A stretch of 64,000 bases of DNA from a virus. The position numbers and the translations under genes are program-made. Below the pieces are notes generated by a model. It searched no databases and was not told the origin of the DNA. It worked only from the letters and a program-made list of their open reading frames with translations. Each line of letters begins with the position of its first letter. Position 1 is the first letter of the stretch. The stretch covers positions 1 to 64,000 of the IMG/VR virus record IMGVR_UViG_3300009594_000003. One strand, written 5' to 3'. Positions 11,661 to 53,376 of this stretch are shown here, one piece after another.

Positions 11661-11704
11661 AGAGTCTTCATTGAGTAACCCGCAGTTACGGGGGGGGTCA
11701 CAAA

Positions 11705-12955
11705 ATGCTGGAAGATGCGAAGAAGCAGCTATACGCTGCTTTGCCTTATGCGAATATCGATCCAGAAAGTGTGTTGAGACTTGAAAGCCCGGAGAAGACG
11801 TTAGAAGTAAGCATCCCAATGCGACACGACGACGGGACGCTGAAAATGTACAGTGCATATCGTTGTCATTACGACAGTACCCTTGGCCCGGCAAAAGGCG
11901 GAATTCGCTACCACCCTCACGTCGATAAAGATCATGTCCAAGCTCTAGCCTTCTGGATGACGTTCAAGTGTGCCGCCGTGAAGGTGCCTTTCGGCGGGGC
12001 CAAAGGGGGCGTCTCTATAGACCCTAAGAAATTATCCAACCGAGAACTAGAGAGAATCAGTAAAGCATACATCAGTGCCTTTGCCGACTTCATTGGCACG
12101 GACGTAGACATACCTGCTCCCGATCTAGGAACCAACGAACGAGTCATGGGGTGGATGTACTCGGAATATCGCAGAATCAAAGGCGGCAATCCGAGAGCCA
12201 TCATCACAGGGAAACCTGTTCCCTTGGGAGGGATTATTGGCAGGAGTTCGGCGACAGGTTACGGGGGCTACTACGTACTAGAAACACTGCTCAACAAGTA
12301 CCTCGATAAAGTCAAGATAGCTGGCAAAGAGAACCTGAGAGTGGCAATCCAAGGCTTCGGAAATGTAGGCTATTGGTTTGCAGAGAAGTGTTACAAGAAC
12401 CATATCAAAGTGGTTGCGGTAACGAACCAATACGGCGGGGTCTATGATCCCAAGGGCCTCGATATACCGAAATGCAAGTTCAACATCGACAACTCCCAGG
12501 AGAAAGAATTCGGGCTGGGCACTAAAATCACCAACGAAGAGTTATTTGAACTAGATACCGATGTATTGGTTCCAGCCGCTATAGAAAACGTCATTACCAA
12601 AGACAACGCCAGAAAGATCAAAACTCCCCTCATATTTGAATTGGCAAACGGGCCTACTACCCCGGATGCCGATGAGATGCTCCAAAATAAAATAATCGTT
12701 CCAGATATCCTCGCCAACGCCGGTGGTGTTGTTGTATCTTACTTCGAGTGGCTGCAAAACAGGCACGCCGAGGAATGGGATGCCGAGAGAGTCAATCTAG
12801 AACTGAACAAGAAGATGAAGTATGCCACAGAGAAGATGATGGATATGTATATGACACATCAGACTTCTATGCGTACAGCTACCTACATTCTAGCCTTGAA
12901 ACGGATCGCAGCCGCCAACGAGTGTTTGGGTAATCGAGGCTTTTTCCAGAGATAA
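11705..12955 (+). CDS. gdhA: Glutamate dehydrogenase
   Basis: Interconverts glutamate and 2-oxoglutarate plus ammonia with NAD(P). The 416-aa product has GPAKGGIRYHP, the catalytic-lysine block KVPFGGAKGG (Lys about residue 100), DIPAPDLGTNERVMGWM, the GRSSATGYGG hinge, and the Rossmann loop IQGFGNVGYW (G-x-G-x-x-G). Length is that of the bacterial hexameric NAD-type enzymes (about 415-430 aa). Upstream is a run of eight G at 11690-11697 that probably acts as the ribosome site. In the same window lat produces glutamate, so both may tune the 2-oxoglutarate/glutamate pool and NAD redox state. Very rare in phages. Confidence 0.95.
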   Translation: MLEDAKKQLYAALPYANIDPESVLRLESPEKTLEVSIPMRHDDGTLKMYSAYRCHYDSTLGPAKGGIRYHPHVDKDHVQALAFWMTFKCAAVKVPFGGAKGGVSIDPKKLSNRELERISKAYISAFADFIGTDVDIPAPDLGTNERVMGWMYSEYRRIKGGNPRAIITGKPVPLGGIIGRSSATGYGGYYVLETLLNKYLDKVKIAGKENLRVAIQGFGNVGYWFAEKCYKNHIKVVAVTNQYGGVYDPKGLDIPKCKFNIDNSQEKEFGLGTKITNEELFELDTDVLVPAAIENVITKDNARKIKTPLIFELANGPTTPDADEMLQNKIIVPDILANAGGVVVSYFEWLQNRHAEEWDAERVNLELNKKMKYATEKMMDMYMTHQTSMRTATYILALKRIAAANECLGNRGFFQR

Positions 12956-33498: not shown

Positions 33499-33748
33499 AG
33501 AAAATCGAAGACGCATGGAGCCAGTTCCAGAACCAAAACGGCAGATGTGCTATTAGTGGGGTCGAAATCAAGTTGGTCAGAAACTATAGCACTGCTCCTA
33601 GAAGGAAGCACCAAACAGCATCACTAGACAGGATTGACAGCACTAAAGGCTATGTCAAAGAAATGTGGCCTGGGTGCATAAAGCGGTACAACAAATAAAG
33701 TGGAACTTCACGCTCTCAGAACTCGTAGACTGGTGTGGTTTGATTTAG
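33499..33748 (+). pseudogene. HNH homing endonuclease remnant
   Basis: The frame reads AWSQFQNQNGRCAISGVEIKL, the spaced TASLDRIDSTKGYV of HNH nucleases, and then fails; one base earlier the ending NVAWVHKAVQQIKWNF..., WCGLI continues to a TAG at 33748. A missing base near 33660 (AAAGAAATG, expected AAAGGAAATG) explains the break. No start codon with a ribosome site is visible, so the N-terminus may also be lost. Confidence 0.75.
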
Positions 33749-33758
33749 AGACATCAAA

Positions 33759-35132
33759 ATGAGTAAGCTGGTTGTAGAAGTGTGTCGTGTTGAAAAGATC
33801 GAAGATCACCCAAACGCCAATCGTATGAAGTTGGCGACAATCAAGGGTTGGAAGACCTGTGTACGGCATGACCCAGAAACAGGCTGGACGCAATTCAAAC
33901 CGGGTGATTTCTGTGTGTATTTTCCGCCCGACGCCATTCTGCCGCCTGCACTCGCCAACGACAGACTTGGGATCATGAAGTATCTCAAGGAACTGCCGAA
34001 AAACGAGCTAGGTGAACGCACGCCTGGAGGCAGAGTTGCAGCCACGAACTTGCGGGGATACCCCAGCTACGGTGTCATCATGAAGATTGATCCCAAGTGG
34101 GGCGATGACCCGAACTGGCCGGTCGGCACCGATCTAGCTGAACACTTCGGTGTCACCAAGTACGAACCGCCGTTGGACTGCACCGATGGAGACGCTGAAA
34201 AGCAATGCCCTCGCTTCTACGATTACACTTCCATCGAACACTACGGCAACTTCCCCGCTGCGTTCGATGCCGGTGAAGAAATTATTCTGACCGAAAAGGT
34301 CCACGGCAAGAACTGCCGAATGGGTCTGTGTCTGGACACAGATGAGAACTGCGTTCCGGGCTGGGTCTACATGTGTGGGTCGCACGACGTTCGCCGAAAG
34401 GAATGGTCTCCACAGAACCGCCGCTTCCAGGCTGCGGAGTTGATGGAGAGCATGATCGTCAGCGAAAAGGCACCGCCACTCGGCACCATCTTCCTATACA
34501 ACGGAAGCTGGTGGAAAGTAGAAGAATGCTACGAGCGTCCCGTCAAGTCGATTCTGCTCGACGCCGAGGGCAAGCGGTACTTTGGGCCTGAAGAGATTCG
34601 GGCATACATCAAGACCGCTCGCTGCACGCAGGAAGGTGAGACGATCCTGCGGAAATCTGAATTCTGGGAGTTTCTAAACGACGGCGTAAAGGGCCTGCTG
34701 GAGTACATGCGGGACGAATATCCCTGGGATGGGAACAAGTTCAGCATCATCCTCTACGGCGAACTATACGGCAGTGGCGTTCAGGATATGACCTACGGTA
34801 TGAGGACCAAGGGTTTCAGGGCCTTCGACCTTGCCTTGAACAACCTCTATCTGGATTTCGCCGTCAAGGTAGACCTGTTCAAGCGGTTCGGCATCGAGAT
34901 GGTGCCGATTCTGTACCAAGGACCGTTTTCCCAGGAAGTGGTCGAAAAGCACACCAGCGGCCCGACTACCCTCTGTGAACCATCAGCGATCAAGAGTGGT
35001 TTCAAGGGGCGGGAAGGCGTGGTGATCTTGCCGACCAAGGAACGGCTCAGTCCTGTGATCGGAAAACGCTGCTGCCTGAAATCAGTGTCTACCGATTACC
35101 TCGCCCGGTCTGGCGGTACTGATTTCCACTAG
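33759..35132 (+). CDS. RNA ligase, DRB0094 (Rnl5) family
   Basis: A 457-aa protein. The N-terminal OB-type domain has VCRVEKIEDHPNANRMKLATIKGW and FKPGDFCVYFPPDAILP, as in the Deinococcus ligase. The nucleotidyltransferase domain has the AMP-bound lysine in ILTEKVHGKNCRM (motif I, K-x-H-G), YGELYGSGVQDMTYG (motif IIIa/IV region) and KGREGVVILP (motif IV/V). It would seal 3'-OH/5'-phosphate RNA ends, probably to repair tRNAs cut by host defences. It sits in the + strand island; its own promoter is unclear. Confidence 0.9.
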   Translation: MSKLVVEVCRVEKIEDHPNANRMKLATIKGWKTCVRHDPETGWTQFKPGDFCVYFPPDAILPPALANDRLGIMKYLKELPKNELGERTPGGRVAATNLRGYPSYGVIMKIDPKWGDDPNWPVGTDLAEHFGVTKYEPPLDCTDGDAEKQCPRFYDYTSIEHYGNFPAAFDAGEEIILTEKVHGKNCRMGLCLDTDENCVPGWVYMCGSHDVRRKEWSPQNRRFQAAELMESMIVSEKAPPLGTIFLYNGSWWKVEECYERPVKSILLDAEGKRYFGPEEIRAYIKTARCTQEGETILRKSEFWEFLNDGVKGLLEYMRDEYPWDGNKFSIILYGELYGSGVQDMTYGMRTKGFRAFDLALNNLYLDFAVKVDLFKRFGIEMVPILYQGPFSQEVVEKHTSGPTTLCEPSAIKSGFKGREGVVILPTKERLSPVIGKRCCLKSVSTDYLARSGGTDFH

Positions 35133-35180
35133 GATTTTCCCTGGTTTCGAGCGGGCCTGCCTCACGGCAGGCCCGCTCTC

Positions 35181-35209
35181 TTGACACCTGAATTCAGGAT
35201 GTCTAGAAT
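35181..35209 (+). promoter_or_regulatory. Sigma70-like promoter
   Basis: TTGACA, 17-nt spacer, TAGAAT. It overlaps the chosen start codon of coaD (35199), so the start or the promoter call must be wrong. Confidence 0.55.
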
Positions 35210-35861
35210 TGCGACGGAGGTTGGGCGAGGCGTTTATGCCGGGTCTTTCGACCCTCCGACTCTGGGACACATATACGTCATCGACCAGACCGCACGGCTC
35301 TTTGACGAGTTGATCGTTGCCGTTGGCGACAACCCTGAAAAAAAGTTTTCTGAACGCAGCAGGATAGATATGCTGAAAGAGAGCATCCTGCTTTTGCAGC
35401 AACGTCTTCAAGGCGACCATCCCATCGAGAACATCCGAGTCGATCATTTCCGTAATCGGTTTCTCATTGACTACGCCAAAGAACAAAACGCAAAGTATAT
35501 CATTCGAGGAATCCGCAACTCCCAGGATTTCGAGTTTGAGAAAGCAATGCGGTATCTCAATGCCGACCTCACGCCAGGGATAACAACCCTGTTCATTGTC
35601 CCTCCACGAGAGTTGGCTGAAATCAGTTCCAGTGTTGTGAAGGGGGTGTGTGGACCGGAGGGCTGGCAGCGTGTTGTCCAGTCTATGGTCCCACCCCCGG
35701 TCTGCTCAGCAAGTGCACCGTCAAAGACGTGGATGAGGAAGGCTAGCTCACTTGTGAGCCGAAGCCCGATAACGAAGTTCTCGCCGTTCAGATCGGCGAG
35801 GACCACGCCGGGCCGGACGGTTTCACCCTCATCGGTCAGTGGGGTGATGAACGAATCGTAG
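35199..35861 (+). CDS. coaD: Phosphopantetheine adenylyltransferase (abnormal C-terminus)
   Basis: CoaD adds AMP to 4'-phosphopantetheine in coenzyme A synthesis. The first 160 residues match the family: VYAGSFDPPTLGHIYVI (T-x-G-H motif), IRGIRNSQDFEFEKAM, and EISSSVVKG (ISSTxxR motif). Normal CoaD ends near here; instead the frame stays open for about 55 odd Ser/Arg-rich residues to 35861. The run CCCCC near 35692-35697 may hide an indel that lost the true stop. ATG 35199 is used; a strong sigma70-like promoter overlaps it, so a start further inside, after GGAGG at 35217, is also possible. Confidence 0.75.
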   Translation: MSRIATEVGRGVYAGSFDPPTLGHIYVIDQTARLFDELIVAVGDNPEKKFSERSRIDMLKESILLLQQRLQGDHPIENIRVDHFRNRFLIDYAKEQNAKYIIRGIRNSQDFEFEKAMRYLNADLTPGITTLFIVPPRELAEISSSVVKGVCGPEGWQRVVQSMVPPPVCSASAPSKTWMRKASSLVSRSPITKFSPFRSARTTPGRTVSPSSVSGVMNES

Positions 35862-37178: not shown

Positions 37179-38389
37179 ATGACAACATGCGTTAAAATAA
37201 TCAGGAAATCCAATGTTTCCGACCCGCTAGAACTGGTTAATCAAAACATGGTGATAGAAGATGGGTTGGAACATGGTAGGAGAAATAACCTTGAACGGCG
37301 TGCCTCGCTGGGATATGCTCGATGAGGCAAATAACCTGATTTCCAAATTAAAAACTACCAAGCCAAAATATGTTATTTACCGTGACCATGATAGAATAGG
37401 CTTCAAGAATCCCGCCGAAATCGGTTTCTTCATTACCTCCCTGAAACAACTGGATATGAAGATTATCACCGCCAACGACGAGCAGGTGGTCGATATGACC
37501 AACCTCGCTTCGACCATGCGGACGGTGCAAAACCAGTTAGCTTCATCAGCCGAGATTGAGAAGAAGGGATATAGGACACAAATTGCTCGCCGGAAGACTA
37601 TCGAGAAGAAGTCTAGTCCTGGCAAGATGTGTGTCTATGACTATGACTGGATAGTATATAACCGTGAAGGCACTTTCAAATATAAGGTCATCTACGAAGG
37701 TTACAAAAAATGCGAAGGACGGCACTGGACTGACCCACCGAAGAATACCAGAAGTCATGCCAATGCGGTGGAAAGAATATCCAGACGGCAAACGAGAAGC
37801 ATATCACGACCAGTGGGTTCAAAATAGTCACAACTGGATATTGCTCACGTCCGTTCCCATGATGGAAAAGGGCGACCGGAAGACTGAGATTGTTAATGTT
37901 GAGCGTGCCAAAGTTGTGAAAGATATATTTGACTTGGCTGACACTCCTAGTTACAAAACTCCTCACGAAATTGCCTGCATCTTCAACAATAAGGGCATCA
38001 AGAGCATGAGTAGGAAGTGGGATGCCAAGACAATAAAGTGCATCTTGTCAAACCCCATATACAAAGGGTATCCAGTCGATAATCAAACTTCAAAAGCAAA
38101 GACCGCTCGGTTGAATACTAATATAGTTACCGTGCCACCGACCAAGGAAGAACGAGCAGCAATACGCATTGTAGATATTGCACAATGGGACCGAGTGAAT
38201 AAATATCTGCGAGATAATCAGACAGGATATAAACATTTTCGCCGTGCTAATCTCGGTGACTTTTGGGCAAAGTGCTTTTTGTTCTGCGGTAACTGCCAAG
38301 ATATTTTTTACGTCGCCAATAGCACTAAATGGAAACCTTCCAAGAACTATCGCTGCGAGAAGTGTGGTGCCATAAAATCCCAATGCTAA
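37179..38389 (+). pseudogene. Large serine recombinase, frameshifted, inserted in a UDG gene
   Basis: ATG 37179 follows GGAG. The sequence reads VKIIRKSNVSDP (catalytic Ser in R-x-S), then, after a frame change near 37258, NMVGEITLNGVPRWDML and VIYRDHDRIG, typical of the resolvase domain. After a second change near 37750 it continues with the recombinase domain (EIACIFNNKGIKSMSRKWDAKTIKCILSNPIYKG) and a zinc ribbon (CFLFCGNC..., [11 protein letters not shown]). It ends there, without the usual coiled coil. Together this is one broken gene of about 400 codons. Its ends coincide with the split in the UDG gene, so it was the inserted agent. Confidence 0.8.
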
Positions 38390-38479: not shown

Positions 38480-39245
38480 ATTTAATCATCTGCTGGGGCG
38501 ACCGAATCGAGGATGTAACCATACGCTGAAAACTCGTAGTGGATTGACCCGTACTGGCCTTGTGGCAAGGCTCTTATCAAGTCGGAGAATTATGTCCTCG
38601 TTCCTGATTACTTTTCTCCCGATGTTCGCTGACCCATTACAATCAGCATTGATTACACGACCGTCACTGGAACGATAACGCCCACGACCCATGCGAGTAC
38701 CAAAAAAACTCATGCTTCACACCAGCAACGTACTCTGGGAGCGGATTACGGTCAAAGAAACTGGCTTTGCTGGTGTAGAACTCCTCCGTGAAAATAACCT
38801 CAAGTTGCACGATAAACTTGGAAACATGGTGGAAGTAGTTTTCCAGTCGGAAGTACCATTTCTTACTTTCACGCTTGGTCTTGTGCCTGTTGAAATGCTT
38901 GTTGATGCTCTTGCAAATGCGACCGTATGGGAGAAGTCTGATCGGAAGTTATCATAGCAAGGTTATTCAACCCAATGTCAATACAGTTGTTCGGGACAGC
39001 TTGTTCGTATTGTACGTCCACGATGAAGCCAAATCGCTTGGGTGTAATGACCACTTATTTGTAGGCTCTGGTACTTTGGATACTGAAGCAGTCGTTGGTC
39101 GGCGTTATGGTGTTCGGTTTTTGCTTAACCTTGTTCTGTCCTCCTTTGATGGTTTCATTATAGAAGATGACCTGAGCCAGTTTGTCCTTGTAGTAGGGTG
39201 GCATGGGCATCTTGACGAACTTACTCTTGTCCTTTGACCACTTAA
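38480..39245 (-). pseudogene. tnpB: TnpB remnant, internally deleted
   Basis: Leftward from about 39245: YYKDKLAQVIFYNETIKG, VVITPKRFGFIVDVQYEQ, CIDIGLNNLAMIT (first RuvC Asp), then the C-terminal VIFTEEFYTSKASFFDR and VINADCNGSANIGRKVI (last Asp). The path needs a TAA (K-TAA-VVITPK, probably an old CAA), several frame changes and a deletion between the first RuvC block and the helices before TEESYTSK. The gene is dead. It lies across the broken end of the UDG gene and the promoter of pncA. Confidence 0.8.
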
Positions 39246-39336: not shown

Positions 39337-40212
39337 ATGCGAAAGGTCCATCTGGTCATCATCGACCCGCAGAATAGTTTTTGCAAAGTCGTTCCCCAAA
39401 CCGACCAGCAGAAACTCCACGACGGCGAACTGTGCGTCACCGGGGCCTGGGAGGATATGGAACGGGTCGGCGACATGATCCGACGCCTGGGCAAGAAGCT
39501 GACGCAGATTCACATCACCCTCGATTCCCACCACCAGTGGCACATCGCTCACCCCTGCTGGTTCAAAGACAGCAAGGGTCAGCCTCCGGCCCCCTTCACC
39601 ACCATGCGAGTAGAAAACGGGGTGATCATCGGTGCCCAATTCGATGCCAAGGGCGGTCTCCATGACGTGGGCGAGTATACGCCGACTCTCTTCGGCGAAA
39701 CCTACAAGTGGACCTACAAGTATCTCACCGAACTGGCTTTGGGCGGTCGCTACCCGCACGTCATCTGGCCGTATCACTGTTTAATCGGCACGCCCGGTCA
39801 CAACATCGTCGCCCCGCTGGAAGACGCCATCCTCGAATGGGAGCGTGTCGCTCGGCAGACCTGCGACAAGATCACCAAGGGGTCATGTCGTTTCGTGGAA
39901 CACTTCTCGGCAGTTCGTGCCGAAGTAACCTACGACCAAGACCCCAACACCCAACTCAACACCGACTTCGTACAAATGCTCGGCCACGAGGCCGACGAGG
40001 TTCTGATCTCCGGTGAGGCCCTATCTCACTGTGTCGCCAACACTTTCCGAGACGTTGCCAACGAACTCGGCGACGACTTCGTGAAGAAGTGTGTGCTGCT
40101 CGAAGACGCCTCCAGCAACGTCGGCAACTTCGAGAGCTACGGCAAGAAATTCGTCACCGAGATGAAGGCTCGTGGAATGCGAGTCTCTACCACCAAGAAA
40201 TACCTCAAGTAA
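39337..40212 (+). CDS. pncA: Nicotinamidase
   Basis: Hydrolyses nicotinamide to nicotinate and ammonia, the first step of the Preiss-Handler route. The 291-aa cysteine hydrolase shows the triad Asp10 in LVIIDPQNSF and Cys232 in EALSHCVANTF (with the usual small-residue turn before it), plus metal ligands in ITLDSHHQWHIAHPCW and WPYHCLIGTPGHNIV. It is longer than bacterial PncA (about 210 aa) by a C-terminal part. GGAGAG is the ribosome site; it has its own promoter. First gene of the NAD block. Confidence 0.9.
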   Translation: MRKVHLVIIDPQNSFCKVVPQTDQQKLHDGELCVTGAWEDMERVGDMIRRLGKKLTQIHITLDSHHQWHIAHPCWFKDSKGQPPAPFTTMRVENGVIIGAQFDAKGGLHDVGEYTPTLFGETYKWTYKYLTELALGGRYPHVIWPYHCLIGTPGHNIVAPLEDAILEWERVARQTCDKITKGSCRFVEHFSAVRAEVTYDQDPNTQLNTDFVQMLGHEADEVLISGEALSHCVANTFRDVANELGDDFVKKCVLLEDASSNVGNFESYGKKFVTEMKARGMRVSTTKKYLK

Positions 40213-40266
40213 CCGGACTGACTATTCGCCCCATAGTCTTTCCCATATACCAGAAAGGAACTAGTC

Positions 40267-40998
40267 ATGTCTGATGAACAGGCCCTTGAACAGCACAAGA
40301 TCGGGCACTTCGGTTTCAGTGCCGTCCACATTGGCAATCTCGGTGCGGCGGAATACACGCTCGTCACCATCGTCTGCGATCGCAGCGGCAGTACCAACGG
40401 CTTCCAAGCCGATATGGAAGCTGCTCTGAAGGAAGTCATCAAGGCGTGTCAGTTCTCGCCACGAGCCAACAACCTTCTGATCCGTGTCCTAACGTTCGAG
40501 GACTCGCACAGCGAATTCCACGGCTTCAAGCTGCTGGAGCAGATCAACCTCGATGACTACAACGGGGCATTGGCACCGGACGGCTACACCGCCTGTTACG
40601 ACGCCATGCTCGACGGCATCGAGGCAACCGACAACTTCGGCCAGCAGTTGGATGCCCAGGATTTCAACGTCAACGCTATCCTGTTCTTCATTACAGATGG
40701 CGATGACAACCGTTCCACGAACGGTACGACACAAATCAAGCAGGCACTCAGTAAGGCGGTGAAATCCGAGGCCCTGGAGAGCATCGTCACCATCCTGATC
40801 GGCGTGAACGTCATCGATCCGCACTTCAAGGAGCGGCTGGAGCAGGCTCACCAGCAGTGTGGTTTCACACAATTTATCGCTTTGGGCGATGCGAACAAGA
40901 AGACACTGGCAAAACTCGCTCAGTTCGTCAGCCAGTCGATCTCCTCGCAGTCTCAGGCGTTGGGAACAGGCGGTCCTTCCAAGAGCATCAACTTCTGA
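40267..40998 (+). CDS. vWA-domain protein (TerY-like)
   Basis: A 243-aa protein with a von Willebrand A fold and an intact metal-ion-dependent adhesion site: VCDRSGSTNG (D-x-S-x-S), a Thr in DGYTACYD and FFITDGDDN. No membrane segment. TerY-type vWA proteins occur with a PP2C phosphatase and a protein kinase; both partners are coded in this island (44328 and 46606). Metal-dependent binding of a phospho-regulated partner is likely. Confidence 0.85.
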   Translation: MSDEQALEQHKIGHFGFSAVHIGNLGAAEYTLVTIVCDRSGSTNGFQADMEAALKEVIKACQFSPRANNLLIRVLTFEDSHSEFHGFKLLEQINLDDYNGALAPDGYTACYDAMLDGIEATDNFGQQLDAQDFNVNAILFFITDGDDNRSTNGTTQIKQALSKAVKSEALESIVTILIGVNVIDPHFKERLEQAHQQCGFTQFIALGDANKKTLAKLAQFVSQSISSQSQALGTGGPSKSINF

Positions 40999-41045
40999 AC
41001 TCTGTCCGTTTCGGAGTTGATTCTGACCACGCTGTTCGGAGCAAG

Positions 41046-41075
41046 ACGCCCGGCCCGACATGTCGGGCCGGGCGT
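41046..41075. terminator. Perfect palindrome terminator
   Basis: A perfect 30-bp palindrome (ACGCCCGGCCCGACA and its complement) after the vWA gene and before the pncB promoter. Confidence 0.85.
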
Positions 41076-41082
41076 TCTTGTA

Positions 41083-41110
41083 TTTACAGGCCAAAAACCA
41101 ACACTACAAT
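41083..41110 (+). promoter_or_regulatory. Sigma70-like promoter of pncB
   Basis: TTTACA, 16-nt spacer, TACAAT, 22 nt before the ATG at 41132. Same boxes and spacing as the pncA promoter. Confidence 0.8.
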
Positions 41111-41131
41111 GGTCGTGAAAGAAGGACCGCA

Positions 41132-42316
41132 ATGCTCAAATCGATTCTAGATACCGACCTGTATAAGCTGACGATGCAGCAGGCGGTATTGGAAAAATAT
41201 CCTGATGCCCACGCCGTCTATACTTTCACGAACCGAAGGAAGTCCGACAAGTTCCCTGATAAGTTCGAGGACTACTTGGTTTCCGGCCTCATGGCCTTAA
41301 CTAAGGTGGCGTTGTCGCCCGGTGAGGCAACATGGCTCGCCACGGCTTGCCCCTGGCTCAAGTCCTCCTACATCGAGTACCTCCGCAACTACCGTTTCAA
41401 CTCTTCGGAACTGTTTTTGAAAGTCAGGAATGACGATCTCACTATCACCATCAACGGACCTTGGCACCGAACTATTCTGTGGGAAGTGCCGATGATGGCG
41501 ATCATCAGTGAACTCTATTTTCAGCATGTAGTCACGGATTGGACGCACGAAGGGCAAGAAGAGAAGATCGCAAAGAAGGGTGAACTTTTTAAGGCAGAGC
41601 AGATACGTTGGTCGGACTTCGGTACTCGTCGCCGTCGCTCCTACAAATCACAAGATCGTGTCGTCAACATCTTCAAAGGCAACCCATTCTTCAGCGGCAC
41701 AAGCAACGTCCATCTAGCCCACAAGTACACTGTCCGGCCAATCGGAACTATGGCCCACGAATGGATTATGGGCCACGCCGCTCTCTGCGGTCTGCGGTAC
41801 GCCAACCGCTACGCCCTGCGTGCGTGGAACGATGTGTATCACGGCAACCTGGGGATTGCTCTTACCGACACCTACGGCACACCAGCTTTCTACAAGGACT
41901 TCGATGGCGTGTTAGCTCGTCTTTATGACGGCGTTCGGCATGACAGCGGTAGTCCCTTCGAGTTTGCCGATGCTGCGGTCGCTCATTACAAATCACTCAA
42001 CATCAACCCAGCCCACAAGACCATCGTGTTCAGTGATAGTCTGGACCCTCCATTGGCAGTTCAGCTTGCTCAGCGGTGCCGTCAACTAGGAATCAACGCT
42101 GTTTTTGGTATTGGCACGAACCTCACGAATGATTATGATAGTGGCAAGCCGCTGAATATAGTCATCAAACTGCGTTCACTGAACGGTGTCGAGGTCGTTA
42201 AACTGAGTGACGATCTCAACAAGGCGACCGGCGATAATGACGCCGTGCGTGTCGCCAAGTGGACGTTCTGCAATACACCGCTCGATAAGCCAGGAGTTCA
42301 GAGCTACAAGAGGTAA
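41132..42316 (+). CDS. pncB: Nicotinate phosphoribosyltransferase
   Basis: Makes nicotinate mononucleotide from nicotinate, PRPP and ATP. The 394-aa product aligns with E. coli PncB: SILDTDLYKLTMQQAV, ILWEVPMMAIISE, DFGTRRRRS, FSGTSNVHLA, GTMAHEWIMGH (autophosphorylated His region), LTDTYGT, GVRHDSGSPFEF, TIVFSDSLD and FGIGTNLTND. ATG 41132 is chosen for its AAGGA site; upstream codons are noise. nadE starts 6 nt after its stop, so they share a transcript. Confidence 0.95.
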   Translation: MLKSILDTDLYKLTMQQAVLEKYPDAHAVYTFTNRRKSDKFPDKFEDYLVSGLMALTKVALSPGEATWLATACPWLKSSYIEYLRNYRFNSSELFLKVRNDDLTITINGPWHRTILWEVPMMAIISELYFQHVVTDWTHEGQEEKIAKKGELFKAEQIRWSDFGTRRRRSYKSQDRVVNIFKGNPFFSGTSNVHLAHKYTVRPIGTMAHEWIMGHAALCGLRYANRYALRAWNDVYHGNLGIALTDTYGTPAFYKDFDGVLARLYDGVRHDSGSPFEFADAAVAHYKSLNINPAHKTIVFSDSLDPPLAVQLAQRCRQLGINAVFGIGTNLTNDYDSGKPLNIVIKLRSLNGVEVVKLSDDLNKATGDNDAVRVAKWTFCNTPLDKPGVQSYKR

Positions 42317-42321
42317 CTGAT

Positions 42322-44331
42322 ATGAACGACTTTGGCCTCGCACGCATCACCGTTGTCAGCCCGGAAGTCAAGGTTGGCAACCCAACATTCAATGCTTTCC
42401 AGGTTGCCGATGCGGTCAAGAAAAACCCTGGATCGCAAATTTATCTTTTCCCTGAGTTGGGGATTACCGGCTATACATGTGCCGATCTCTTCAACTCGGC
42501 TACACTTCTCGAACGGACTGTGGATAGTCTAGTCTGGCTCAGCGAGCAGACGTATATGAATGACGCCTTCGTTGTGGTCGGTTTACCTGTCAAAGCAGAC
42601 GGCAGCCTCTACAACTGTGCCGCCGTTATTCACGCCGGGAAAATCCAGGGTCTCATCCCCAAGCAACATCTCCCGACGTACAAAGAATTCTATGAACGTC
42701 GTTGGTTTGCCCCAGCTACCGGCATGGAATCCAGGGCCATCAAGTTCGGGAATCTCTACATTCCTTTTGGTATCGATCTACTTTTCGAGGATGAAAACCA
42801 CCCCAACATCCTCATTGGAATCGAGATTTGCGAGGATGTGTGGACTGTCATCCCGCCCAGCAGCTATCAAGCCTTAGCCGGGGCAACGATCCTCCTCAAC
42901 CTCTCTGCCAGCAATGAAACAGTCGGCAAGGCCTCATATCGCCGTGATCTGGTTCTTAACCAATCTGGCCGCTGCATCGCTGCATATGCTTATGCCAGTT
43001 CTGGCTGGACAGAATCTACCACCGATCTAGTTTTTGGTGGTCACTGCATGATTGCCGAGAACGGTTTGATGCTTACGGAAACCCCCAAGTTTGAGCGGTC
43101 GGCAATGATTACTGCGGATGTTGATGTCGAAAAGCTGGTGCTGGAACGTGAACGCACTTCGAGCTTTGCTGACAACAAACGTCGGCAGGCTGTTCCGTTC
43201 CGCATCTTCCGAATAGCTCTGGAACAGCGGGGCGACGATAGGCTTATGCGGAGCGTGAATCCTCACCCCTTCGTTCCGCATAACACCAAAGAACTAGACG
43301 AACGCTGCAAGGAGATTTTTGGCATCCAGACTCGTGGCCTTGCAAAGCGAATCGAAACAGCCAATGTCAACCGCATGGTAATTGGTGTCTCCGGTGGTTT
43401 AGACTCTACGCTCGCTCTCTTGGTTGCAGCCAAAGCGTGTGATCTAGTTGGCAAGCCGCACAGTACCATCCTGGGGATTACCATGCCGGGTTTCGGCACA
43501 ACAAGCCGGACCAAGAACAACGCCATCAAGTTGATGGAAGCATTGGGCGTCGAGCAGAAAACCATCGACATTCGCCCGGCTACCCTTCATGCCCTGTGTG
43601 ATATACAACACAGGCCATTCGGGATTAAACTTGAAGCTCACTACCCGTATCCAGGCAGTGCGGTTGAAGCGTTGCAGGCACAACTTGCCAACCTGCCACA
43701 CGACAATCGCCACGATCTGGTGTTCGAGAACGTCCAGGCTAGACTCAGGACGTTCCTGTTGATGTCGCATGGTTTCGTCGTCGGCACAGGCGATCTATCG
43801 GAGCTTGCCCTGGGCTGGTGTACGTACAACGGCGATCACATGTCGATGTACAATCCCAACTGTAGCATCCCAAAAACACTGGTGAAGTTCCTTGTGGAAT
43901 ATGTTGCAGAAAACGAAGTGAGAAACTTTGTTAACAGCGACAACACTCTGGTGGACATCTGCAAGACAACAATTTCTCCCGAACTGTTGCCAGCGGGTGC
44001 GGATGGCAACATTCTACAGTCCACCGAGGATGTTGTCGGCCCCTACGAACTGATTGACTTCTTCATGTTCTGTATGATCCGGTGCGGATACGGGCCGAAG
44101 AAGACTTTGTACCTCGCCGAACACGCTGAGTTCAATACAAAGTACACACGAGACCAACTGAAAAATTGGTTGAAGGCTTTCTATTTCCGGTTCTTCTCCT
44201 CGCAATTCAAGCGGTCTTGTGTGCCTGACGGCCCGAAGGTCGGGTCGGTTTCTCTGTCGCCGAGAGGCGACTGGCGTATGCCCAGCGATGCTGATGTATC
44301 AATTTGGGTCAGCGAGGTTGACGAAGCATGA
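42322..44331 (+). CDS. nadE: Glutamine-dependent NAD synthetase
   Basis: Amidates NaAD to NAD using glutamine as ammonia donor. The 669-aa protein has an N-terminal nitrilase-type glutaminase (Glu in FPELGITGY, Lys in PKQHLPTYKEFYE, Cys in GIEICEDVW) and a C-terminal synthetase with the ATP loop GVSGGLDSTLALLV, TMPGFGTTSRTKNN, TGDLSELALGW and YNPNCSIPKTLV. Both halves are intact, so no ammonia supply is needed. The TGA overlaps the next ATG (ATGA), coupling it to the PP2C gene. Confidence 0.96.
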   Translation: MNDFGLARITVVSPEVKVGNPTFNAFQVADAVKKNPGSQIYLFPELGITGYTCADLFNSATLLERTVDSLVWLSEQTYMNDAFVVVGLPVKADGSLYNCAAVIHAGKIQGLIPKQHLPTYKEFYERRWFAPATGMESRAIKFGNLYIPFGIDLLFEDENHPNILIGIEICEDVWTVIPPSSYQALAGATILLNLSASNETVGKASYRRDLVLNQSGRCIAAYAYASSGWTESTTDLVFGGHCMIAENGLMLTETPKFERSAMITADVDVEKLVLERERTSSFADNKRRQAVPFRIFRIALEQRGDDRLMRSVNPHPFVPHNTKELDERCKEIFGIQTRGLAKRIETANVNRMVIGVSGGLDSTLALLVAAKACDLVGKPHSTILGITMPGFGTTSRTKNNAIKLMEALGVEQKTIDIRPATLHALCDIQHRPFGIKLEAHYPYPGSAVEALQAQLANLPHDNRHDLVFENVQARLRTFLLMSHGFVVGTGDLSELALGWCTYNGDHMSMYNPNCSIPKTLVKFLVEYVAENEVRNFVNSDNTLVDICKTTISPELLPAGADGNILQSTEDVVGPYELIDFFMFCMIRCGYGPKKTLYLAEHAEFNTKYTRDQLKNWLKAFYFRFFSSQFKRSCVPDGPKVGSVSLSPRGDWRMPSDADVSIWVSEVDEA

Positions 44332-45179
44332 ACACCGACTCATTCTATGCCAAAGGTTCTACCCACCGTGAGAACCAGGACTACGCCACTCACGGCGAGA
44401 GAGAGGGGCAACCATTCGCTATCATTTCAGATGGATGTTCGTCTGCTCCACGCACTGATTTCGGGGCACGGATTCTGGTGCAAGCCGCCGTGCAATATCT
44501 CGGCGTGGCTGGATACAATGATGATTCATTTAGCCATAGTACGATCAATACGGCCCGTATTTGGTCACATGCCCTGGGCCTGCCTGATGATTGCCTCTGT
44601 GCTACGCTGCTCATGGCTATAGTTGCAAACGTAGATGTAGGAATGCCGCACGTTGACCAGCATATGTACAAGGTCTTCATCAGTGGCGATGGCTTTGTGG
44701 TTGCTCGGCACAAGGACCGCATGGAAATCCACGAATATAAATTTGCTCGTGGTGCCCCATGCTACCTTCGCTACAGCCTGGACCCCAAGATGTCCAAGGA
44801 CTATTGGGCAAAGTTCGGCGATGAGGTCACACATCGCATCTACATGATCGACAACAACGGAAAATCCGACTACCAAAAGGAGACGAAGAAATATCCTGCC
44901 GCTCCGTTCTTCTTTAAGTTGGAGTTTCCCGTCTCCGACTACCTTTGGGTCGCAGTGGTCAGCGACGGCGGCGACTCTTTCTTGGAAACGGTGGACCACG
45001 GCACCGGCCTAGAACCAACCGATGTTCCGGCCAGTACCGTACTATTTGAGCTATTCAACTTCAAGAATTATCAAGGCGAGTTCGTCCAGCAACGGTGCAG
45101 TAAGGCTTTCAAGGAGTTCGGCAAGAAACGCTGGCAGAACGCCGACGACATTGCTGTTGGGGTGATTGCGAGGGACTGA
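44328..45179 (+). CDS. PP2C-type serine/threonine phosphatase
   Basis: A 283-aa protein of the metal-dependent phosphatase family: THRENQDYAT at residue 12 (first metal Asp), ISDGCSSAPRTDFGARIL (second metal site, DGxG variant DGCS), VAVVSDGGDSF and QNADDIAVGVI near the C-terminus (last Asp). Coupled to nadE by ATGA and to the former nadD by 1 nt. It would remove phosphates added by the kinase coded at 46606; the vWA protein at 40267 completes the trio. Confidence 0.85.
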   Translation: MNTDSFYAKGSTHRENQDYATHGEREGQPFAIISDGCSSAPRTDFGARILVQAAVQYLGVAGYNDDSFSHSTINTARIWSHALGLPDDCLCATLLMAIVANVDVGMPHVDQHMYKVFISGDGFVVARHKDRMEIHEYKFARGAPCYLRYSLDPKMSKDYWAKFGDEVTHRIYMIDNNGKSDYQKETKKYPAAPFFFKLEFPVSDYLWVAVVSDGGDSFLETVDHGTGLEPTDVPASTVLFELFNFKNYQGEFVQQRCSKAFKEFGKKRWQNADDIAVGVIARD

Positions 45180-45180
45180 T

Positions 45181-45798
45181 ATAAGAATCGGACTTCTAGG
45201 CGAGGCCTTTGACCCAATTACCTGTGCCCACATGGACATGGCTAGAGTTGGACTAGAAGTGTTCGATGAAGTCTAGCTCATGCCATGTAATACACATCCT
45301 TGGGACAAAGAAATGGCCCACGGCTCAGACCGTCTTCATATGATTGAGTTGGCGACTCAACACACCCCCAAAATAAAACCGTGCCCCTACGAACTAGAAA
45401 TGGCACCAAGTTCGTACACCTACGATGTGGTGTGGAGCATGAGACATAAGGTGCGGTTCATGCCGATTGAATTCAGCATCATCGTTGGCATGGACAATGC
45501 CAACAAAATCAAGGAGTGGCATCGCTGGCAAGAACTGATCGAAATGATCCCTTTCCTTGTAGTAAAGAGAAGGGGCATCGAACAACAAACTGATTAGTTC
45601 CTGAAAGCTCCTCATATGTTCAAGGACATCGGGACGGTGACGGGCACACTGCAAACCAACTGCCTAGCCGTACCAATTAGTTCAACACTGGTACGGCGAA
45701 CCATCAGAGAGGGCGGCGATGCCCGCCCATTTCTGCACTTGGACGTGTGGAACTACATCGACAAGAAGGGACTCTACAAGAAAGGTCCAGATGAATAA
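45181..45798 (+). pseudogene. nadD: Nicotinate-nucleotide adenylyltransferase, broken or recoded
   Basis: NadD turns NaMN into NaAD, the step between pncB and nadE. The 206-codon frame reads IRIGLLGEAFDP, then ITCAHMDMARVGLEVFDEV, TAG (45274-45276), LMPCNTHPWDKEM..., EFSIIVGMDNANKI, IEQQTD, TAG (45595-45597), FLKAPHMFKDI and finally VPISSTLVRR. The ends carry the nucleotidyltransferase motifs (T/H-x-G-H, here TCAH, and ISSTxxR). Both TAGs lie where relatives have Trp (VWLMPC, WFLKAPH), the first codon is ATA where ATG is expected, and GLLGG is GLLGE. These changes are G to A. Length equals normal NadD, with no frameshift. Either dead, misread, or read through. Confidence 0.85.
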
Positions 45799-46609
45799 AT
45801 GTTGCGTCTACATGGTGAATCAACATCCGCTGTACATGAACATGGCTTGTAACAGCATAGCCATGTTAAGGAAACATTCGGCCATTCCAGTTCGTGTACT
45901 GCTGATTACCGATTTCGCACGCACCACCTTCTCTAATACACGGAACTACCCCGGCTTGGAACTTGATGTGTCCGATGATGCTGTGAAACGGATGTCGGAC
46001 AGGTTGGTTGTTAAGTGCGAGGAAATGGGAGCGGAAGTAAAGGTACTGAGTCCACACGCCGCCGAAACAGACTACATTCATTGCAACCAATCCTACATGG
46101 CTACGGAATGCCCAGAGGAACTGGTCATGAAAATGGATGCCGACACCTTCCTCTTCGGCGACATCGAGCCTGTTTTCAACGCATACGATGGATACGATGT
46201 AGTCGCCCTGGAAGCGGACTGGTTCAAGAAAGAAAAAGAATGGAAGCCTGAATGGTTCGGGAATCAGACGCCACTCTCTACAGCGGTGATTCTGTTCCGA
46301 AACGAAACGGCCAAACGCTGGGGAGAATTCTTGCCAGGGATGTGTCGGGCGTATGCCGAGGGCGACTCTGACGCCGCTATCTGGGCACGAAACAGAAAAA
46401 TCTTGTATTTGCGGGACGAACTTTCCTTAACACCATTCGTCATCTGCAATACACTGAAATGGAGGCTGTTCAGGGAAGAACACTGTTGCCAGATCAGTGC
46501 CCCGGAGTTTTGGAAAAACATCATTGCACACGCCTTCGGCTACAATTGGCTGAAGGCTTATCAGATGCTCACAGGGAGCAAAGACTTGCCGTTGAGGGCC
46601 GCTCAATGA
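45791..46609 (+). CDS. Glycosyltransferase (DxD type)
   Basis: A 272-aa protein whose ATG overlaps the nadD stop. VYMVNQHPLYMNMACNSIAML is the GT-A start, and VMKMDADTFLFGD carries a D-x-D metal/nucleotide site, as in GT8-like enzymes; HCNQSYMATECPEE and GNQTPLSTAVILFRNE follow. It stands between nadD and the kinase in one coupled operon, unrelated in obvious function, perhaps modifying a protein or cell-surface sugar. The stop overlaps the next start (ATGA). Confidence 0.75.
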   Translation: MNKCCVYMVNQHPLYMNMACNSIAMLRKHSAIPVRVLLITDFARTTFSNTRNYPGLELDVSDDAVKRMSDRLVVKCEEMGAEVKVLSPHAAETDYIHCNQSYMATECPEELVMKMDADTFLFGDIEPVFNAYDGYDVVALEADWFKKEKEWKPEWFGNQTPLSTAVILFRNETAKRWGEFLPGMCRAYAEGDSDAAIWARNRKILYLRDELSLTPFVICNTLKWRLFREEHCCQISAPEFWKNIIAHAFGYNWLKAYQMLTGSKDLPLRAAQ

Positions 46610-48345
46610 AGCTCTACTTGAAGGGAAGTGGCACCGAAATCAACCTGGATCAGCGGGACTTCATTGCCAAAGGCGGCGAGGGCAGCATCTTCGGCAAGGG
46701 GGCGATTGCCTACAAAGTCTATGACGACCCGCACAAGATGATCCCCGTTGCCAAGATCGGCGAACTAGCCGTCCTCGATCATCCGAACATCATCAAGCCA
46801 GACGTTGTGTTGCTAGACGGCAAGAACAAGCCCATCGGCTACACAATGCGATTGCTGAACAACACTCACGTCCTCGTCTCTTTGTTTACCAAAGCCTTCC
46901 GCTTGCGTAATGGTATTGACGACGCCATGATGCTCCATCTGGTCAGGGAACTTCAAAAACTCGTGGCGTTCGTTCACAGCAAACGTATCCTCATCGTTGA
47001 CCTGAACGAGATGAACTTCCTCACGGATGCCGGGTTCAAGGACATCTACGGCATAGATGTCAATTCATACCAAACGCCCGGCTTTCCAGCGACAGCAATT
47101 ATGGATACGATTCGTGACCGCCACATGACGGGCCACAATTTCAACCAGAACACCGACTGGTTTAGCTGGGCCGTTGTTGCCTTTCAAATGCTGATTGGCA
47201 TTCATCCGTATAAGGGATCGCATCCCGACTTTGAGACGATGCCCAAGGACGAGCGACTGAATGCTCGTATGACTAGAAACGTCTCGGTCTTTCACAAGAA
47301 TGCTACATGGCCCAAGGTGTGTCAGCCATTCGATGTCATCCCGCCAACGCTCAAGGGCTGGTTCGTTGACGTGTTTGAGCGTGGACATCGTGGCAACCCG
47401 CCTCCCAATTACGCCGCCGTGGTTGTGGCGGTCGCTACTGCGATTCAAGATATTGTCGGCACCGACCTGTTCGACATTCAGGAACTACAAACCTTCGCCG
47501 AGGAAATCGTGCGGGTATGCTCTACGGCCAACACCACGGTAGTTTTCACCAAAGATAATTTAGTCATTGGCAAGAAGCTCTACCCGCTGCCGTCGCCAAC
47601 GTGCAAGATCGCTTTTGCCCCGAAGACCGAGAACCCCATCGCCTTCTGGATTGACAACGGCCTCAAGGCGTTAGATGTAGTTTCCAACAAGCCGTTGTCC
47701 GTCCCAGCAACCGGCACCGCCCTCCTAGAATGCGACGGTCGTGTGTATGTCCAGAATGGGACATACCTCATGGAGTTTATGATCGGCGAGTTCCCGACCG
47801 GCGTGAAGATTCTGCCAAAACAGGTCGGCAAAGTTATGGATGTGCTGGGTGCCACGCAAATCTACGACGGCGTGATCTTGCAAAACGTCCTGGGAACTTT
47901 CTACGCCACGATCTTCCCGGTGAGCGGCCAGAGCCATCAGGTCAAGCTCACCGAGTTGTCCAAGTACCAGATCATCGACGTCAAGTACGAGAATGGTGTC
48001 CTGGTGGTAGTTGGCACAAAGCTAGTCTCGAAGCGGTCAATGGCAACCAAGAGCAAGTACGACCGTTTCGTGTTCCGCATGTCGCCGGACTACAAGAATT
48101 ACGACTTCTGGACCGCCGAGGACGTAACCTATACCGGAATCAACTTCACCGTCGCCGATCACGGCGTAGCGGTACTGATGAACGAGGAGGAAAAACTGGA
48201 AGCCTTCTCGGAGACGAAAGGATCATCGACTACGCCCAAGAGATTCGATGATGATGCCCTTGACACCGACATGAAGTTGTGTCACCGTGGCAGCAAGATT
48301 CTGTTCGCCAAGGGGAAGAAACTGTATTCCATTTCCATGAAGTAG
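46606..48345 (+). CDS. Protein kinase of the vWA/PP2C-associated type
   Basis: A 579-aa protein. Residues 15-300 form a kinase domain: FIAKGGEGSIFGKGAIAYKVY (Gly loop and Lys), LAVLDHPNIIKP, LIVDLNEMNFLTDAG (catalytic D...N) and IYGIDVNSYQTPGF in place of DFG. The C-terminal 280 residues are repetitive beta strands resembling a propeller. Kinases of this kind appear with vWA and PP2C proteins in Ter systems. ATG 46606 is coupled to the glycosyltransferase; the upstream codons in frame are read-through. Confidence 0.85.
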   Translation: MKLYLKGSGTEINLDQRDFIAKGGEGSIFGKGAIAYKVYDDPHKMIPVAKIGELAVLDHPNIIKPDVVLLDGKNKPIGYTMRLLNNTHVLVSLFTKAFRLRNGIDDAMMLHLVRELQKLVAFVHSKRILIVDLNEMNFLTDAGFKDIYGIDVNSYQTPGFPATAIMDTIRDRHMTGHNFNQNTDWFSWAVVAFQMLIGIHPYKGSHPDFETMPKDERLNARMTRNVSVFHKNATWPKVCQPFDVIPPTLKGWFVDVFERGHRGNPPPNYAAVVVAVATAIQDIVGTDLFDIQELQTFAEEIVRVCSTANTTVVFTKDNLVIGKKLYPLPSPTCKIAFAPKTENPIAFWIDNGLKALDVVSNKPLSVPATGTALLECDGRVYVQNGTYLMEFMIGEFPTGVKILPKQVGKVMDVLGATQIYDGVILQNVLGTFYATIFPVSGQSHQVKLTELSKYQIIDVKYENGVLVVVGTKLVSKRSMATKSKYDRFVFRMSPDYKNYDFWTAEDVTYTGINFTVADHGVAVLMNEEEKLEAFSETKGSSTTPKRFDDDALDTDMKLCHRGSKILFAKGKKLYSISMK

Positions 48346-48910: not shown

Positions 48911-49597
48911 ATGATCGATTTCGGCTTCAAGGAGTACCTTCAACTACAAGAGATGGCGGCGAGAAAAAGCCTCGCTAGAAGTCTTGAGAAGTGGATGGAC
49001 AACATCGACAAGCCGGTTGCTGTTTTAACTGCGTTCCGAAGCGAACATGACCTGGAAACGAATCGAAAGAGAAACGAGGAACTGGTCAAGGACTTGACGG
49101 CTGCCGGTTTGAGCCATTACCCTGTAACAGGACAAGGCCAGGAGATCAAGCGATGGGCATTCCTTTTCCGAGTAATCGAACCAACGAAAGAAGAGTCCTT
49201 TGTGGTCCAGCCACGAGGCGAAATGAGCGATACGGTATTCGTTAGCACTATCCAGGGGTTGATGAACACCTACAACCAGGATTTCGTGGCAATGAAATTA
49301 CCAAGCAGTCCTGATGCTTTTCTACTTGGGAGAAATGGGAATAGAGAACCATTGGGTCGAAGTGCCCATCCAAGAAGAGAAGAAAACCCGTTTTACTCAG
49401 AATTGCTCAAAGGAGTAAGAACGCCGCCCGAACAAATGAGCGGATGGGAAAGAACGGGAGAAAGAAGTCTGGTACGTCGATTCATCAACTGGCTGAGGGG
49501 CAGGTCTCATATGAACCACCCAGTCCCAGCCGATGAAAGAGGCGGCAGAAGATTCGTAGTGGGCGATGCACCCAAACACCCACAGGGAAATGCGTAA
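48911..49597 (+). CDS. DUF3293-like protein with targeting-like N-terminus
   Basis: A 228-aa protein starting MIDFGFKEYLQLQEMAARKS with L-Q-E at residues 12-14. Residues 37-75, AVLTAFRSEHDLETNRKRNEELVKDL plus GLSHYPVTGQGQE, match the DUF3293-type core (T-A-x-R...N-x-x-R-N). The C-terminus is basic and disordered. Its start follows the composite promoter closely. Possibly a packaged, early-acting protein. Confidence 0.6.
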   Translation: MIDFGFKEYLQLQEMAARKSLARSLEKWMDNIDKPVAVLTAFRSEHDLETNRKRNEELVKDLTAAGLSHYPVTGQGQEIKRWAFLFRVIEPTKEESFVVQPRGEMSDTVFVSTIQGLMNTYNQDFVAMKLPSSPDAFLLGRNGNREPLGRSAHPRREENPFYSELLKGVRTPPEQMSGWERTGERSLVRRFINWLRGRSHMNHPVPADERGGRRFVVGDAPKHPQGNA

Positions 49598-51959: not shown

Positions 51960-52844
51960 TTAATCCATAGTTATTGGTAGTATATCGCCGAACTTATAAA
52001 TCAAGTCCTCGAACCACTTCTGCCTGTCCTCTCTCGCCTCTTGGATCAACTGATCCCCGTCTAGCTGCACCCCGCCGTTTGGACCGGGCGGATTCTTGAT
52101 TCTGCCTCTAATCCTTCCAAGTATCTCCTTAGCATAGGTCAAAGCTCCCTCGTTCATGGCCTGAGTAACCTCTGCCCAATCTTTGCATTTCTGTAGGTAG
52201 TGTACGATGACCTTCTGGGCTTTAGATGGCACAGGATAAAGTTTGATGTGCTTTAGACCACCAACCCACTCCCAACCGCCCAAGTTGGACGATATTCTAG
52301 AGAACATCTGCTCATACTGTTTGTATAGTACCCACTCGCCCATCCTTCCCCAAATCGGCTGTACCGGGTCTATCAGGCCCCCTTGAATCGAAGCGTAACT
52401 ACCGCCTGGATAGAAATACTCGATAGGAATAGCTCCGTCTAAATCTGAAGCCTGGAAAGCAAAGTTGCCAGTTTCCTTGTAGTAGACGTTCCTAATCAAC
52501 CCCACGTCTGGCGGCATTTCATAGATGCTTTTCCCCGGAGTGGTAATGAACGTGTAGTAGGAATAGTATTCTTTCCCGGCGTAGTCTTCAAACACACGCA
52601 GAACTTCGTCTATGCAAAAGTCGAGGTTCTGTTCATCTAGTTCTAGTTTTAGGGTGGGGGCACCCAGCATATGAAGAATGTATTCTCTGATTTCCTGACG
52701 TACTTTTTCACGATTAGGGCGTGGGCCAACACCCTTGTATCTGGTGTTGCCACTAGGAGAACAGGACGAAGCACAGGCACCAGAGGCCATTGCCTGAGCG
52801 GAAGGACGACCAATGACCAAAGTATTGTTGCCGCAATTACTCAT
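51960..52844 (-). CDS. Neck protein, T4 gp13-like
   Basis: A 294-aa protein. After a Cys-rich opening it has VRQEIREYILHMLGAPTLKLELDEQ and FCIDEVLRVFEDYAGKEYYSYY, the pattern of the T4 gp13 neck protein that joins head and tail. TTPGKSIYEMPPDVGLIRNVYYKE and WEWVGGLKHIKLYPVPSKA follow. ATG 52844 is used: a TATATA box is 8-14 nt upstream and no ribosome site is seen. The match is from memory of the family, so the exact gp number is uncertain; a structural role is likely. Confidence 0.55.
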   Translation of the reverse strand: MSNCGNNTLVIGRPSAQAMASGACASSCSPSGNTRYKGVGPRPNREKVRQEIREYILHMLGAPTLKLELDEQNLDFCIDEVLRVFEDYAGKEYYSYYTFITTPGKSIYEMPPDVGLIRNVYYKETGNFAFQASDLDGAIPIEYFYPGGSYASIQGGLIDPVQPIWGRMGEWVLYKQYEQMFSRISSNLGGWEWVGGLKHIKLYPVPSKAQKVIVHYLQKCKDWAEVTQAMNEGALTYAKEILGRIRGRIKNPPGPNGGVQLDGDQLIQEAREDRQKWFEDLIYKFGDILPITMD

Positions 52845-52850
52845 AGTGAA

Positions 52851-52858
52851 ATATATAG
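52851..52858 (-). promoter_or_regulatory. T4-late-like box, start-proximal
   Basis: On the minus strand TCTATATATTTCACT precedes the ATG at 52844; the TATATA core is 7 nt from it. Confidence 0.45.
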
Positions 52859-52860
52859 AA

Positions 52861-53376
52861 TCAAGACTTGTGATATTCGCCAAGCCTCGGAACGATATAC
52901 CTGTTTGCTATGTCAAGCCATTGCGATTCGGTAAAAAAGTTACTCTTGAGGTTGTTACACCTGTGACATGCTAAGCAAATGTTGTCCATAGTATAACCAC
53001 TGGCGTTATCTTTCCGGTCCACTGTCATTAGTGATTTTTTACGCTTCGTCGCTTTTAGAATCGCCTCAGATACACCACAGTAATAACAGACCTTGCTCTG
53101 CCCGTTGTACCAACTAGCAAACTCGTCTCTAGACATGTCTACCAACAAACCACGCTGTTTTGCAGTCGTTTTAATAGACGAGTACCTAAGTTTCCCTTGA
53201 TCGTATGCTTCTCGGTGTTGCTTATACCTCATCTTACGCCATCTGTCACGGTTTTTATTCAAGCATTTGTTGCATAGAACAGTTGACCGTGGGCTAATGG
53301 AATTTGGGCACTGCTTGCAAAGTCCTGCCAATCTTCTCTTCTTGGTTCTTTCTATTTGGCGTTCTTTATTTGCCAT
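52861..53376 (-). CDS. HNH homing endonuclease
   Basis: A 171-aa protein. CKQCPNS and LCNKCLNK form an N-terminal zinc finger, then the HNH core: CYYCGVSEAIL, LMTVDRKDNASGYTMDNICLACHRCNNLKSNFF, with the His-Asn-His-type residues in a double-CxxC setting. AGGAGG is the ribosome site. It stands between the neck gene and the divergent 3-kb gene, a common place for free-standing homing genes. Intact. Confidence 0.85.
   Translation of the reverse strand: MANKERQIERTKKRRLAGLCKQCPNSISPRSTVLCNKCLNKNRDRWRKMRYKQHREAYDQGKLRYSSIKTTAKQRGLLVDMSRDEFASWYNGQSKVCYYCGVSEAILKATKRKKSLMTVDRKDNASGYTMDNICLACHRCNNLKSNFFTESQWLDIANRYIVPRLGEYHKS

Follow-up and report, generated by a model that had tools for sequence, protein, structure and literature searches.

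A nicotinamidase-centred operon for probable NAD salvage and its possible control in a large phage

The locus described here is, in the reading that we favour and hold to be somewhat probable, an operon of a large phage for NAD salvage and NAD control, in which salvage genes have been added to a core of four genes that would exert control by phosphorylation. The core would unite a nicotinamidase with a vWA protein, a PP2C phosphatase and a Ser/Thr kinase that ends in a predicted beta-propeller, and the biosynthetic genes joining it here would be those for PncB, a glutamine-dependent NadE and NadD. Preiss-Handler cassettes in large phages are real and recurrent, and are not wholly new.

The window, that is the whole stretch of DNA analysed, comprises 64,000 nucleotides and is part of a virus record of 85,651 bases (IMGVR_UViG_3300009594_000003). 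A second contig, IMGVR_UViG_3300017388_000002 (122,654 bases), belongs to the same phage and is identical to the first in all the overlapping stretches compared. Comparison with annotated phages at the DNA level gave a single match, confined to the recombinase region. An initial annotation had placed pncA, pncB, nadE and a broken nadD at 39337-45798, limits that coincide with the first base of the pncA-like gene and the last base of nadD, and family models and active-site residues bear these assignments out, the genes forming a tight, co-directional operon. All the operon genes lie on the + strand with -14 to +133 nt between neighbours; interleaved with the NAD genes, and trailing them, are genes for vWA, PP2C and Ser/Thr kinase proteins. 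These last three genes were absent from the initial annotation. The features are as follows:

39337..40212, + strand, PncA-like putative nicotinamidase, 291 aa (active-site residues, PDB profile search, predicted fold)
40267..40998, + strand, vWA-domain protein with MIDAS residues, 243 aa (weak Pfam match, MIDAS conservation)
41132..42316, + strand, PncB nicotinate phosphoribosyltransferase (TIGR01514; frame open from 41060, start probably at 41132)
42322..44331, + strand, NadE glutamine-dependent NAD synthetase, 669 aa (NF002730)
44328..45179, + strand, PP2C-family protein phosphatase (PF13672, metal-binding Asp present)
45166..45798, + strand, nadD, nicotinate mononucleotide adenylyltransferase with two in-frame TAG (TIGR00482 on read-through; likely start TTG 45166)
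45791..46609, + strand, GT-like ORF of uncertain function (ORF only)
46606..48345, + strand, Ser/Thr protein kinase with predicted C-terminal beta-propeller, 579 aa (Pkinase match, catalytic residues, AlphaFold2)

The GT-like ORF, which overlaps nadD by 8 nt and the kinase gene by 4 nt, had no matches in Pfam, PADLOC or NCBIfam, and the relatives of the locus lack it at the corresponding place. The window also encodes CoaD, a glutamate dehydrogenase and a class-III aminotransferase.

The PncA-like protein fell under the curated cut-offs (26.3 with Pfam Isochorismatase, where 27 is required) and was therefore assessed by its residues, by a profile search of the PDB and by structure. Residues D10, D63, H65, H147, K181 and C232 were invariant, first among 7 and then among 44 aligned homologues; D10, K181 and C232 correspond to the nicotinamidase catalytic triad and D63, H65 and H147 to the metal ligands, and the WPxHC motif is kept in the family. 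The family profile matched 9 PDB sequences, mostly nicotinamidases, with yeast Pnc1 at the top (5e-15), and the AlphaFold2 model (pLDDT 94.8) had yeast Pnc1p as its best Foldseek match (4.5e-14), ranks 1 to 11 being all nicotinamidases. In both the sequence and the structure searches nicotinamidases outranked other isochorismatase-fold enzymes, which together with the residues points to a probable nicotinamidase that would convert nicotinamide to nicotinate. Identity to the nicotinamidases atop the structure search is 14-19%, and this distance, with the scores below cut-off, means that the substrate could be another amide. It is nevertheless quite improbable that the protein is a cysteine hydrolase of a different amide with PncB, NadE and NadD nearby by coincidence, since all the nicotinamidase catalytic and metal residues are conserved along with WPxHC, nicotinamidases head both searches, and the combinations PncA-PncB, NadE-PncB-PncA and PncA-PncB-NadE-NadD occur without an intact vWA, PP2C and kinase triad (L156, L201 and L204, the last two holding PncA, PncB and NadE, with or without NadD).

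The family models leave the identities of PncB and of the glutamine-dependent NadE unambiguous at the sequence level. PncB scored 422.8 bits with TIGR01514 (cut-off 269.55) and is the sole PF04095 match across the 85.7 kb record, and NadE, which holds CN_hydrolase and NAD_synthase domains, scored 838.9 bits with NF002730 (cut-off 473).

The initial annotation had further claimed every step from nicotinamide to NAD. All four enzyme families are indeed present, but the third step is broken in the window, where nadD is interrupted by TAG at 45274-45276 and again at 45595-45597, both of which are also found in the second contig of the phage. Read through the stops, the gene scored 121.4 with TIGR00482, against a cut-off of 112.45. 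Relatives carry Trp at the TAG positions in all or most alignment rows, so that single G-to-A changes of TGG would be enough to produce them. Reassignment of TAG is the less likely explanation, because the kinase gene and further long ORFs here terminate in TAG, and because the window and the additional scanned stretches of both contigs of this partly assembled phage yielded no tRNA gene and so no suppressor; nadD is most likely a young pseudogene. A second nucleotidyltransferase, at 35133-35861, was considered as a substitute for NadD and rejected, as it is CoaD. Since NadD is essential in most bacteria, the host may supply the missing step. Intact nadD genes are found in other viral contigs (L006, L043, L061, L106 and L204), and complete nicotinamide-to-NAD sets with intact nadD are present in at least five viral contigs besides those of this phage.

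Of the three signalling-type proteins, the vWA protein has a weak Pfam vWA-TerF-like match (E 0.0016), and its MIDAS residues D38, S40, S42, T108 and D144 are invariant among 6 homologues. The PP2C protein matched PF13672 over the cut-off (36.7 bits), with D35, G36, D121, D213 and D274 invariant, again among 6 homologues. For the kinase, a Pkinase match (E 1.4e-4) is accompanied by conservation of K37, E53, D132, N137 and D151 in 47 homologues; its AlphaFold2 model (pLDDT 91.8) gave Foldseek matches to kinases and to WD40 domains, and the C-terminal half is predicted to be a beta-propeller.

A scan with the kinase family recovered 111 viral relatives, 80 of which were kept, and 42 loci in bacterial or archaeal genomes. 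Of the viral kinases, 72 were distinct and had long reading frames, and their loci also held PncA in 65 cases, vWA in 68 and PP2C in 70; for 28 kinases from bacterial and archaeal bins the corresponding counts were 18, 19 and 19. The conserved unit is the quartet PncA-vWA-PP2C-kinase, and not the salvage pathway. The closest relatives, L050 and L062 (kinase 71-72% and PncA 79-81% identical), keep the quartet and are without PncB, NadE and NadD there. In L006 and L043, two divergent viral contigs, the order is the same as in the window (PncA, vWA, PncB, NadE, PP2C, NadD, kinase) and nadD is intact, while PncB was not found in the L046 locus. Nicotinamidase and kinase are also present in separately deposited genomes of large uncultured phages, LR756511 (595 kb) and LR745208 (485 kb).

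Beyond viruses, the quartet was found in Acidobacteria, Patescibacteria and other MAGs, often near NrtR, a transcriptional regulator of NAD genes from the Nudix family. Misbinned phage contigs are possible among the bacterial and archaeal bins; some of the bacterial contigs with kinase loci reach considerable length, with 511 kb for Acidobacteriota and 1.36 Mb for Armatimonadota. A plasmid of a cultured Variovorax carries PP2C, the kinase and then pncB, with NADAR and NAD synthase farther along.

The triad of vWA, PP2C and kinase recalls TerY-P, which is composed of a TerY-like vWA protein, a PP2C-like phosphatase and a Ser/Thr kinase (PMC11090510), and the phage locus has all three in one cluster. 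TerY-P-like modules defend against phage (PMC11090510, citing Gao 2020). The locus might accordingly be a phage-borne conflict system akin to TerY-P, directed at competing phages or at host takeover, with the triad as effector and the NAD genes as passengers or antidote, and plasmid-borne copies of the bacterial module or its relatives would fit such a role. We regard this as unlikely. The C-terminus of the TerY-P kinase is a zinc ribbon, or an OB fold in the antiphage form, whereas a beta-propeller is predicted here, and PncA accompanies the triad almost always and NrtR frequently. In PADLOC, the vWA protein had no model match and the kinases gave weak matches to other kinase models only, the name TerY-P being absent from these results, although the library may not include TerY-P models.

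In related phages the NAD genes are not merely scattered, a pattern that would have counted against the initial annotation, since the set recurs in divergent viral contigs with intact nadD and the linkage is far above chance. Among 50 viral contigs, chosen by kinase similarity and contig size, PncB lay at most 10 kb from the kinase in 10 of the 19 contigs having PncB (expected 2.1) and NadE in 19 of the 29 having NadE (expected 3.5), neither value being reached in 5000 simulations under a null of uniform random placement, which takes no account of any tendency of metabolic genes to cluster; certain contigs had entered the set with NAD genes already in the neighbourhood. In Agrobacterium phage Atu_ph07, PncB and NadE are widely separated. 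Mapped on the kinase tree, PncB, NadE and NadD require at least 17, 24 and 14 changes, respectively, counts that are inflated by cut contig ends, indicating that the link to these genes was gained or lost many times. In about 60% of the module loci PncB, NadE and NadD are all missing from the reachable neighbourhood, so that the role of the quartet cannot be simply to complete a local pathway.

In 23 loci NrtR lay no farther than about 4 kb from the module, with Pfam confirming 23 of 23 candidate neighbours. Other neighbours were NAMPT (8 loci), PRPP synthetase (5), NADAR (5) and NadM-like NMNAT-Nudix proteins (5); Nudix proteins aside, the largest other neighbour family reached 11 loci. The near-constant company of kinase, phosphatase and partner protein around the first enzyme suggests that NAD supply is under phosphorylation control. 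This company is what general auxiliary metabolism, in which the genes would enlarge the NAD pool for phage replication, ligation and redox in hosts short of nutrients and would have no particular tie to defence, leaves unexplained, and we consider that account rather doubtful. In its favour, the NAD genes of huge phages are usually termed auxiliary metabolic genes (PMC13384950 and PMC10747093), and the genes for CoaD, glutamate dehydrogenase and aminotransferase in the window would suit such a role.

Counter-defence by a Preiss-Handler cassette, in the manner of NARP1, is a plausible candidate role, as the initial annotation proposed. As the main role, the operon would return to NAD the nicotinamide released by TIR, SIR2 and other NADase defences, with the kinase, phosphatase and vWA protein timing or boosting the process, a possibility that we rate as clearly less likely than not. 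It fits the full route from nicotinamide, with nadD intact in other viral contigs, and the proximity of other module copies to genes for NAMPT, PRPP synthetase and NADAR, which serve to replenish NAD or to handle ADP-ribose. On the other hand, each NAD made by the Preiss-Handler route from nicotinamide costs PRPP, glutamine and several ATP equivalents, the copy in the window is broken at nadD, and the closest relatives lack the later steps. Bacteria carry the module as well, beside NrtR, which indicates NAD homeostasis as much as counter-defence. A precedent exists in NARP1, an established counter-defence that uses nicotinamide and ADP-ribose (PMC12774641).

The phage locus shares with NARP1 the ability, here predicted, to replenish NAD from nicotinamide. 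NARP1 consists of Adps and Namat, neither of which was found among the operon proteins in family scans, and the phage locus has other enzymes, which would act in four steps via nicotinate and PRPP. NARP2 consists of NAMPT and NMNAT; in the operon the phosphoribosyltransferase is of the PncB type and the adenylyltransferase is of the NadD type and broken. Salvage of the NARP2 type or as in KVP40 (NAMPT/NadV with NadM/NadR) likewise uses nicotinamide and PRPP, whereas the route encoded here would deamidate first and continue with PncB, NadD and NadE. The same four enzyme families, PncA, PncB, NadD and NadE, make up bacterial Preiss-Handler or PncA-dependent salvage, from which the locus differs in being a phage operon with interleaved kinase, PP2C and vWA genes and a broken nadD.

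A survey from 2022, covering 21,191 viral proteomes, describes only NadV, NadM and NadR for phage NAD synthesis (PMC9503650). A nicotinamide-to-NAD gene set, of the kind that the initial annotation had put forward as a candidate third type of phage NAD-replenishing system, was already reported in 2023 in the wastewater huge phage 5-SewaE, where four genes leading from nicotinamide to NAD+ are described as auxiliary metabolic genes only; the available part of that report makes no mention of a linked kinase, PP2C, vWA or NrtR, or of a conserved operon (PMC10747093). A 2026 paper describes a Xanthomonas phage with pncB, nadM, nadD and nadE (PMC13384950). A bacterial parallel in setting is offered by ADP-ribosylglycohydrolase systems, which combine an NrtR-like (Nudix) or WYL regulator, a phosphatase and vWA in an NAD/ADP-ribose context; these centre on the ADP-ribosylglycohydrolase, and neither a kinase nor a nicotinamidase is given for them in the section concerned (PMC9503650, section 3.8). 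Our literature search, which left subscription papers largely outside, found no paper linking a nicotinamidase with a kinase-PP2C-vWA set, and the quartet is apparently undescribed.

In the operon for NAD salvage and control that we favour, PncA would deamidate nicotinamide, including that released by NAD-cleaving enzymes, to nicotinate, which PncB would couple with PRPP. Adenylylation by NadD would follow, in this phage probably with the host enzyme, its own copy being broken, and NadE would amidate the product to NAD. The kinase and the phosphatase would most likely toggle the salvage enzymes, in activity or assembly, or else a host target, by adding and removing phosphate, while the vWA protein would hold the peptide concerned. 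More tentatively, and with considerable doubt, the quartet may be an NAD-sensing phosphorylation switch common to large phages and bacteria, which would govern modular salvage and restore NAD from the nicotinamide that NADases release, as a regulated third kind of phage NAD replenishment.

Replenishment of NAD by phages is a recently recognised reply to NAD-depleting immunity, described for NARP1 and for NAMPT-type routes, and to these a nicotinate route recurring among large phages would add a third chemistry, starting from the other NADase product. The constant tie of the nicotinamidase to kinase, phosphatase and vWA genes, seen also in bacteria beside NrtR, suggests phosphorylation-controlled NAD salvage, which is not described in the literature searched, and the quartet bearing the nicotinamidase is the part of the locus most worth following.

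Upstream of the NAD-salvage operon the window carries coaD, a phage-borne coenzyme A gene, preceded by an RNA ligase gene and followed by recombinase-like and transposase-like ORFs:

33744-35132, + strand, RNA ligase (phrog_968, PF09414)
35133-35861, + strand, pantetheine-phosphate adenylyltransferase, CoaD (TIGR01510, 143.9 bits)
37261-38389, + strand, serine-recombinase-like ORFs, split between two frames
38486-38713, - strand, short transposase-remnant-like ORF, next after the recombinase-like ORFs

The serine-recombinase-like stretch shares 83% DNA identity with the huge phage LR756511.1. Elsewhere in the window, a class-III aminotransferase (7585-8898, + strand) and a glutamate dehydrogenase (11675-12955, + strand) are encoded, cargo that is unusual in a phage.

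Directly downstream of the operon is a gene of the S-adenosylmethionine lyase family, with a possible anti-restriction function, and a head-tail adaptor gene lies beyond it:

48911-49597, + strand, member of the S-adenosylmethionine lyase family (31.3 bits against PF23780, exceeding the cut-off)
51960-52907, - strand, head-tail adaptor Ad2 (phrog_211)

In other contigs, the conserved module of PncA-like nicotinamidase, vWA protein, PP2C phosphatase and Ser/Thr kinase has recurrent neighbours. Methyltransferase-domain proteins adjoin the kinase in several copies, both bacterial and viral (among them L210, 10737-12959, and L124, 10762-11541), and genes for Thg1-like tRNA-His guanylyltransferases recur as neighbours in 11 loci, lying near PncA in L056 and others. 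Four loci (L049, L052, L056 and L083) have a minus-strand relative of the Ad2 gene downstream of the module, linking it to a common phage backbone.
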